This document shows, piece after piece, positions 19,911-21,000 of a stretch of DNA of 36,732 bases (the stretch's first letter is position 1; each line of letters begins with the position of its first letter). The stretch comes from a virus: positions 1 through 36,732 of the IMG/VR virus record IMGVR_UViG_3300043436_000460. One strand, given 5' to 3'. A model generated the notes under the pieces. That model did not search any database, was not told where the DNA came from, and worked only from the letters and a program-made list of their open reading frames with translations. The translations under genes and the position numbers were made by a program.

Positions 19911-20019
19911 CTATTTCGGCATGAAGATATGCCCCGGCTGTAGGAAGTCTAGAAGCGATATGCAGTTCAAAGACGCTAATGTTTGCCGGACTTGCCAGCT
20001 TAGGGGAGTTAAAGTATAG
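19852..20019 (+). CDS. Small zinc-ribbon-like protein
   Basis: 55 residues from TTG 19852 with GAGGGG about ten bases upstream (an ATG at 19921 would give a 33-residue core). Two CxxC knuckles, CPGC and CRTC, are separated by 15 residues including RKSRSDMQFKDANV, typical of a minimal zinc ribbon. Basic. The stop codon lies inside the -10 box of the promoter of the downstream RNA gene candidate. Likely nucleic-acid binding. Confidence 0.55.
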   Translation: MKIEPSTPVAAISEKPAKTNYFGMKICPGCRKSRSDMQFKDANVCRTCQLRGVKV

Positions 20020-20020
20020 T
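19992..20020 (+). promoter_or_regulatory. Promoter of the small RNA candidate
   Basis: TTGCCA (19992-19997), 17-base spacer, TATAGT (20015-20020): five of six matches in each box at ideal spacing. The predicted start is near 20027, exactly at the base of the first hairpin of the candidate RNA. Confidence 0.65.
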
Positions 20021-20025
20021 TTCAT

Positions 20026-20129
20026 CACGCTTGGCAGCGTGTTTACGAGTAAGCCTTAGATGGGACTCTGCTGGTACTCGCCAGTCTGCCAACGACCAAA
20101 AGTCGAGAGTCTCACCTAGGGCTTTTTTT
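20026..20129 (+). ncRNA. Candidate structured small RNA with kissing-loop potential
   Basis: Starting just after a good promoter, the ~104-nt RNA would fold as: 5' hairpin CACGC/GCGTG (20026-20041) with loop UUGGCA; a 19-position stem 20051-20069 with 20106-20124 (16 Watson-Crick pairs, two G-U, one mismatch) closing a three-way junction; hairpins CUGG/CCAG (20071-20084) and CGAC/GUCG (20093-20105); and a U7 tail (20123-20129). The junction strand UGCCAA (20087-20092) is exactly complementary to the 5' loop UUGGCA. No protein frame is credible here. I know of no family it matches. Confidence 0.6.
20051..20129 (+). terminator. Intrinsic terminator formed by the long RNA stem
   Basis: The 19-position stem (20051-20069 with 20106-20124) runs directly into seven thymines (20123-20129). 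It would end both the small RNA and transcripts from the 19081 promoter unless antitermination occurs. Confidence 0.7.
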
Positions 20130-20141
20130 ATTGGGAAAGCC

Positions 20142-20372
20142 ATGTTGAAATTTAGATCAACTCAAGAAACTGAAGTTTGGATTAGCAGTGTTGGCTGTCT
20201 TGTAATAAAGCAAGATTCAGCTATTGATGGTCAAGAAGTAACTGTAGTTTTGACACCAGATCAAGCAGAAGAAATAAAAATGCTTGTTATTGATTTTTAT
20301 GACGAGATGGCTTGTATGTGGAATGGTGGAATTGTCAATGGAGGCGAGGATGAGCAATCTCCTGATAAATGA
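20142..20372 (+). CDS. Small acidic protein upstream of replication genes
   Basis: 76 residues from ATG 20142, twelve bases after the terminator. Beta-like first half (KFRSTQETEVWISSVGCLVI) and helical second half (TPDQAEEIKMLVIDFYDEMA). It overlaps the replication initiator by 23 bases. No known domain. Weak ribosome site. Confidence 0.5.
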   Translation: MLKFRSTQETEVWISSVGCLVIKQDSAIDGQEVTVVLTPDQAEEIKMLVIDFYDEMACMWNGGIVNGGEDEQSPDK

Positions 20373-21000
20373 GCCGCCATTACAGGTATTGCCATCACTA
20401 GCTGTTCGGGTTGGGTTGTGCGAGGCAATAATTGTCCAGCAAATACATTATTGGCTGCAAAGAACTAAGCCGCTTGATGATGGATATTGCTGGGTTTACA
20501 ACACGGTCAAGGACTGGCAGAAACAGTTTCCTTTTTGGCATGGCAATACAATTTTTCGCCATTTGCAGTCTTTGAGGGAATCAGGGGTTTTGATAGCGGA
20601 ACAAAAATCAGCTAATGCCTTTGATAAAACGCTGTATTACAGGATTGACTACGACAAATTAGGTGTGGAATCGATTACACCAAAATGGGGTAATCGGAAG
20701 CATCAGAATGGTGAGATCACTGTAAATACAGAGACTACCATAGACTACTTTGAAGACTTCTGGAAAGCGTATCCTAAGAAGGTAGCAAAAGAGGATGCGA
20801 TTAGGGCTTGGTCAAAGATAAAGATGGATGAATCTACTTTAGCCAATATCCTGAAAGCAATTAAGGATCAAGGTCTTGCAAGCCAAGAAAAGAAGTTTGT
20901 TCCGCACCCGGCTACATGGCTCAATAAAAAACGCTGGGAAGATGAAGTAGAGCCAATTCAGCAAGCCACTGAAGACTGGCGATGGAGGCTCGTCAAATGA
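20350..21000 (+). CDS. Replication initiation protein (O/DnaD-like)
   Basis: 216 residues from ATG 20350 with GAGG just upstream. N-terminal winged helix (LPSLAVRVGLCEAIIVQQIH, YNTVKDWQKQFPFW, IFRHLQSLRESGVL) followed by a linker and a C-terminal domain typical of phage initiators (FEDFWKAYPKKVAKEDAIRA, then KFVPHPATWLNKKRWEDE). Such proteins bind the phage origin and load the helicase, here the DnaB-like protein two genes downstream. Stop overlaps the next ATG. Confidence 0.75.
   Translation: MSNLLINEPPLQVLPSLAVRVGLCEAIIVQQIHYWLQRTKPLDDGYCWVYNTVKDWQKQFPFWHGNTIFRHLQSLRESGVLIAEQKSANAFDKTLYYRIDYDKLGVESITPKWGNRKHQNGEITVNTETTIDYFEDFWKAYPKKVAKEDAIRAWSKIKMDESTLANILKAIKDQGLASQEKKFVPHPATWLNKKRWEDEVEPIQQATEDWRWRLVK

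Follow-up and report, generated by a model that had tools for sequence, protein, structure and literature searches.

An uncatalogued structured RNA family preceding the replication genes of phages, with a possible role in transcription attenuation

Directly ahead of the replication genes of the viral contig IMGVR_UViG_3300043436_000460 (36,732 nt, analyzed as one whole stretch and referred to below as the window) lies a short region with the appearance of a transcription unit of its own. What is this unit, and what could it do for a phage? The initial annotation had described here an unfamiliar structured RNA and left the choice between a free-standing small RNA (sRNA) and an attenuator, both of which fit the unit. 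We found that it represents a real, new and widespread family of phage RNAs; as for its mechanism, transcription attenuation in cis is the most likely, and its main rival is a structured RNA that acts in trans. The parts of the element and its neighbors are the following.

19992-20020, plus strand: sigma70-type promoter TTGCCA-17-TATAGT (-35 TTGCCA at 19992-19997, -10 TATAGT at 20015-20020)
20026-20129, plus strand: structured RNA, one copy of the uncatalogued family (sequence, fold and covariation)
20026-20041, plus strand: hairpin P1 (stem 20026-20030/20037-20041), at the predicted transcription start
20031-20036, plus strand: loop L1, UUGGCA, 5' partner of pseudoknot a, pairing with 20087-20092
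20046-20051, plus strand: linker CGAGUA, 5' partner of pseudoknot b, pairing with 20075-20080
20052-20069, plus strand: 5' strand of P2 (18 nt), the 5' half of the terminator stem
20070-20085, plus strand: hairpin P3 (stem 20070-20074/20081-20085; fold and covariation)
20075-20080, plus strand: loop L3 of P3, UACUCG, 3' partner of pseudoknot b
20087-20092, plus strand: junction strand J, UGCCAA, 3' partner of pseudoknot a
20093-20105, plus strand: hairpin P4 (stem 20093-20096/20102-20105), with a conserved stem and a loop that varies in sequence and length
20106-20129, plus strand: intrinsic terminator, comprising the 3' strand of P2 (20106-20123) and the U-tract (20123-20129)
20142-20372, plus strand: gene for a 76-aa protein of the MLKF family, its ATG 12 nt past the U-tract
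20350-21000, plus strand: replication initiation/DnaD-like helicase-loader gene, start of the replication module (PHROG 6493, E = 6.6e-36; PHROG 270, E = 2.7e-29)

The overall shape is a three-way junction of P2, P3 and P4 with two pseudoknots and a terminator. The 5' hairpin with its loop UUGGCA can be read directly from the DNA, as annotated earlier, and UGCCAA at 20087-20092 is the exact complement of that loop. In the window the element folds with -41.4 kcal/mol (z = -3.6), a value equalled by 1 of 200 shuffles; together with the covariation described below, this bears out the impression that promoter, fold and terminator agree beyond chance. One correction concerns the terminator stem, to which 19 positions had been assigned: the long stem and its U7 tail are real, but P2 comprises 18 positions, i.e., 17 pairs and the mismatch A20060.C20115 at position 9. 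The pair A20051-U20124 could be a nineteenth, but A20051 is shared with pseudoknot b. This second pseudoknot had gone unnoticed, as had the membership of the RNA in a widespread family.

The small downstream gene led to the first three relatives that carry the same RNA. With a first DNA pattern, viral contigs yielded at least 107 verified true copies, 92 of them distinct, while 18 further hits without loop-junction complementarity and without the flanks were set aside. A second pattern, constructed to exclude the first P2 class, recovered copies whose P2 has a completely different sequence and is still paired, raising the verified distinct copies to at least 182; seven more have a re-paired P3. 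Most pattern hits in genome contigs (14 of 16) were chance matches lacking the fold, and two genome contigs carry the RNA, one a betaproteobacterial MAG and the other from Polynucleobacter sp. UK-Kesae-W10, where the RNA lies in a prophage-like region of the chromosome. In samples of about 400 genomes each, a covariance model derived from 19 representatives found two more copies in the family of UK-Kesae-W10 and one more in its order, and no further copies in the sample of the class beyond that order. In total, at least about 190 distinct copies were verified in phage contigs, along with a few in Burkholderiales genomes. There is one strong match per locus in the 70 loci considered.

Searches against catalogued sequences and families returned little. 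The window element alone gave nothing by blastn against annotated phages and plasmids; a blastn with concatenated diverse copies found the RNA in one public phage genome sequence, deposited under both MW202462 and MW202544. The earlier statement that no matching family was known agrees with Rfam 15, where the window has no match that reaches the gathering threshold and, with the cutoff relaxed to E = 10, none of relevance; fifteen other loci, the majority of which carry the RNA and among which both P2 classes are represented, returned only a tRNA. The Polynucleobacter-1 RNA motif (RF01718) resembles our family in its distribution among Burkholderiales and in freshwater (PMC2864571), and a direct search with it found no match at E <= 1 in the window and five other carrier genomes or records. 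The c4 antisense RNA (RF01695) of P1/P7-type phages is likewise a small structured regulatory phage RNA of the immunity/early region (PMC12197685). However, c4 loops are complementary to a target mRNA, whereas the loops described here pair within the RNA, and Rfam showed no c4 match.

The initial annotation had proposed to look among relatives for covarying pairs in the long stem and in the loop-junction pairing, and such covariation was found in an alignment of 19 diverse representatives, drawn from copies filtered on pseudoknot a. Across these, 94.0% of cells are paired and 30 of 44 pairs differ on both sides; the covariation score is 0.516, versus 0.183 when shuffled and 0.037-0.107 when slid. 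P1 shows both-sided changes in four of its five pairs, and the three-way junction with its two enclosed hairpins is supported by fold and covariation alike. Pseudoknot a, between L1 and J, is paired in 100% of the representatives, a figure partly selected for since this very pairing served as the filter; the hits that the filter dropped also lack the remainder of the fold. It occurs in four covariant forms (UUGGCG/CGCCAA, UUGGCA/UGCCAA, UUGACG/CGUCAA and UUGGAG/CUCCAA), and a fifth, UUGGUC/GACCAA, is present in one locus (L303). A pattern scan for a purine at the third position of J gave chance matches only. Together, these comparative data are the decisive evidence that confirms the element as a real structured RNA, one of a family that is widespread in phages and supported by covariation.

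Pseudoknot b, formed by the linker directly before P2 and the loop of P3, was never used to filter copies. It amounts to 4-8 bp in 182 of 182 copies among the matches listed, with a mean of 6.33 contiguous bp in native copies versus 4.28 +/- 0.09 when loops are swapped between copies, and it covaries over 48 distinct loop sequences. Its spacing from P3 stays within 17-19 nt for 180 of 182 copies among the matches listed, despite unrelated P2 sequences. P2 itself occurs as 46 distinct helices in which positions 1-8 and 11-18 are nearly always paired and most of which have a mismatch at position 9 or 10, other mismatches being rare; this central mismatch splits P2 into a lower and an upper half. 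Its types are A.C or C.A at position 9 (20060/20115 in the window) and A.G at position 10. The P3 stem has the variants CCGG/CCGG and CAGG/CCUG. The conserved bases are almost all paired, C20086 being the clearest unpaired conserved column, and the unpaired spacer and the P4 loop vary between copies. We found no conserved single-stranded seed in the alignment of 19 representatives, nor did the alignments of copies show a conserved unpaired pocket of the ligand-aptamer type.

The predicted promoter, which in the window overlaps the 3' end of an upstream 55-aa ORF, is in place as annotated, and its position is conserved in 110 dereplicated copies among the matches listed. In these copies a strong -10 element falls in the expected interval in 82% of cases, versus 2-12% in other intervals, and the combined promoter score reaches 7.4, compared with 2.85 +/- 0.21 for shuffles. 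The predicted start lies near P1, and this conservation supports the notion of one unit from promoter to terminator, with its start in register with the 5' hairpin. A strong terminator, i.e., stem and U-tract, is found in nearly all phage copies among the matches listed. The features of a free-standing sRNA gene, its own promoter and an intrinsic terminator, are thus present, both predicted from sequence.

The position directly before replication genes, pointed out for the window, is the same across many phages: the RNA stands between a cro-like or small regulatory gene and a replication-initiation gene. An upstream ORF usually ends, with its stop codon, 9-28 nt ahead of the P1 loop; among the genes on this side are a zinc-ribbon-like small ORF and genes for YdaS/Cro-like proteins. 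Downstream, 136 of 152 copies among the matches listed have the next start codon 8-16 nt past the U-tract, and replication-initiation or primosomal genes, of several unrelated kinds, usually occupy the first or second place. The genes on either side are unrelated from phage to phage, having been swapped around the RNA. The variety of the downstream gene speaks against a riboswitch dedicated to one gene, which we rejected. Proteins of the MLKF family (76-84 aa), which has no PHROG or Pfam match, are common directly after the RNA; the 76-aa protein of the window is one of them.

With somewhat less than even confidence, we favor the reading in which the RNA would be an integrated transcription attenuator of the early/replication operon, acting most likely in cis. 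It is preferred because of the modeled steric exclusion, balanced energies and the logic of the guanidine-IV riboswitch, and pseudoknot b is what makes it mechanistically concrete. The linker runs directly into P2, and just five pairs separate its partner loop from the opposite end of that stem; for this reason, the full P2 and pseudoknot b would be incompatible within one molecule made of rigid A-form helices. In this coarse, phosphate-only model, where a kink at the central mismatch could relax the clash, the linker would have to bridge 35 A to the full P2 base if P3 and pseudoknot b are stacked, or 24 A if a free hinge joins the two, whereas adjacent nucleotides may be about 6.5 A apart. 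The fold is feasible in the model only after about 3-4 lower P2 pairs have opened. The exclusion of pseudoknot b and the P2 base by one another would follow from such rigid-helix modeling. The two are comparable and balanced in energy: -5.8 kcal/mol for pseudoknot b and -4.2 kcal/mol for the lowest four P2 pairs in the window. In the guanidine-IV riboswitch, a kissing loop and an elongating terminator stem exclude each other (PMC11611296). Like guanidine-IV and HMP-PP riboswitches, our RNA has paired conserved elements at the tip of the terminator stem and an upstream kissing loop that would compete with it sterically (PMC11611296; PMC8632094). As in guanidine-IV, it is located immediately upstream of a gene, on the same strand and with an intrinsic terminator, at the 8-16 nt given above. 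In contrast to both, it has two pseudoknots and a three-way junction, precedes a variable gene, occurs in phages, and is without an identifiable ligand pocket or Rfam match.

We infer both the switching and its direction, which could operate as follows. Transcription would start from the RNA's own promoter, at or within a few nt of P1, or come from an early promoter further upstream. The first parts to emerge would be P1, the linker, P3 and the junction strand, which could form the kissing pseudoknots a (L1-J) and b (linker-P3 loop). As long as pseudoknot b keeps the linker off the P2 base, the lower terminator pairs would stay unzipped and RNA polymerase would read into the gene about 12 nt further on; with pseudoknot b absent or displaced, the full 18-bp P2 would form against the U-tract and transcription would stop, leaving an RNA of about 100 nt. 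The lower P2 pairs border the U-tract, and intrinsic termination depends on such pairs. Because unrelated genes follow the same RNA, the signal would probably be a general one (a host factor, RNA polymerase or ribosome, or a metabolite) and not one phage protein. The spacing of 8-16 nt leaves little room for another promoter, which counts for attenuation, although tight spacing to the neighboring genes could reflect genome compactness instead. Against attenuation count the absent conserved unpaired pocket and two copies that have no U-tract. A bolder proposal, to which we give a somewhat lower but still appreciable chance, is a new class of phage RNA switch, in which exclusion between pseudoknot and terminator would serve as an interchangeable gate before unrelated replication modules, set by a signal of a general nature in the infected cell.

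The two copies in question, L301 and L302, come from Burkholderiaceae genomes and lack the U-tract and a clear promoter. Their RNAs are 96% identical, compared with 64-70% for their flanks. Retention of the fold without a terminator seems to point to a role beyond termination in these copies, and favors a trans-acting or protein-binding role at least there; termination may not be the sole role of the RNA. They thereby support the main rival to attenuation, a free-standing structured sRNA that would start at its own promoter, end at its terminator and act in trans as a folded RNA, e.g., by binding a host protein, and not by seed pairing. The conserved promoter with its predicted start close to P1, the strong terminator of nearly all phage copies among the matches listed, the single copy per locus and the unrelated genes on both flanks all agree with such an RNA. 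Yet neither the short, narrow start-codon spacing nor the constant orientation before the replication module is required of an RNA acting in trans, a conserved single-stranded seed is absent, and the apparent steric conflict between pseudoknot b and P2 in the monomer is not something one would expect a static sRNA to retain. On balance, we consider this rival unlikely, though worth serious attention. Its variant with a seed for base pairing is disfavored, there being no conserved unpaired stretch.

The steric conflict could also be resolved between molecules. P2 would then be a rigid rod, and the 5' plug (L1 and linker) of one RNA would dock on the socket (J and P3 loop) of another, giving dimers or chains. 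The covariation-supported pairings are hard to satisfy within one molecule with a full P2, and P1 plus pseudoknot a, as well as P3 plus pseudoknot b, come to 11 bp each, apt for side-by-side docking. RNA-only homo-oligomers are known for GOLLD, ROOL and OLE, and these are also ornate noncoding RNAs, GOLLD being lake-derived (PMC12286853); those RNAs are large, however, whereas the RNA here is about 100 nt long and ends in a terminator. A fold in cis is already feasible with about 3-4 lower P2 pairs open, and we regard self-assembly as improbable.

Still less probable is an element like put of phage HK022, where the nascent RNA would bind RNA polymerase and alter its elongation into the early operon. 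In HK022, put acts as RNA alone and takes the place of lambda nut; putR lies about 270 nt past the PR start (PMC9378689). Our RNA, too, would act as RNA in a phage early operon, where it occupies the position of lambda nut, following cro-like genes and preceding the replication genes. However, put consists of two stem-loops of about 70 nt, without a terminator of its own (PMC9378689), whereas here we observed another topology, a three-way junction with two pseudoknots, and a strong terminator. Finally, an ordinary terminator between early genes with an incidentally elaborate loop is scarcely credible: the strong stem followed by U7 suits it, but P1, P3, P4 and both pseudoknots covary, the core outlives the loss of the U-tract in L301 and L302, and a mere terminator would not retain P1, the linker or the promoter, so that as the whole story it is refuted by the covariation data.

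The family described here is uncatalogued and common in freshwater Burkholderiales phages such as those of Polynucleobacter. Should it be an attenuator, some phages would gate the entry into DNA replication by an RNA switch and not by a protein such as lambda N; should it act in trans, it would be a widespread structured phage RNA acting on some target.

Several observations concern the surroundings of individual copies. In some loci, a homing-endonuclease-like gene that starts just past the 3' end of the RNA directly separates it from the replication gene. These genes belong to several unrelated families: they are GIY-YIG-like in L129 and L234, and of HNH types in L029, L124, L224, L301 and L302, the HNH gene adjoining the RNA in the latter two. 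The RNA gene may be a hot spot for insertion or for targeting. In some copies of the second class, the RNA is preceded by a short Cys-rich, apparently secreted protein with a motif like CTTCCYGNNCNTxC (L298, about 755-898; upstream ORFs of L143 and L153). The public record of L298 (MW202462) places a hypothetical protein (UOF77143.1, 817-1059) antisense to the RNA and overlapping it, and has no annotation for the replication gene at 1027-1728.
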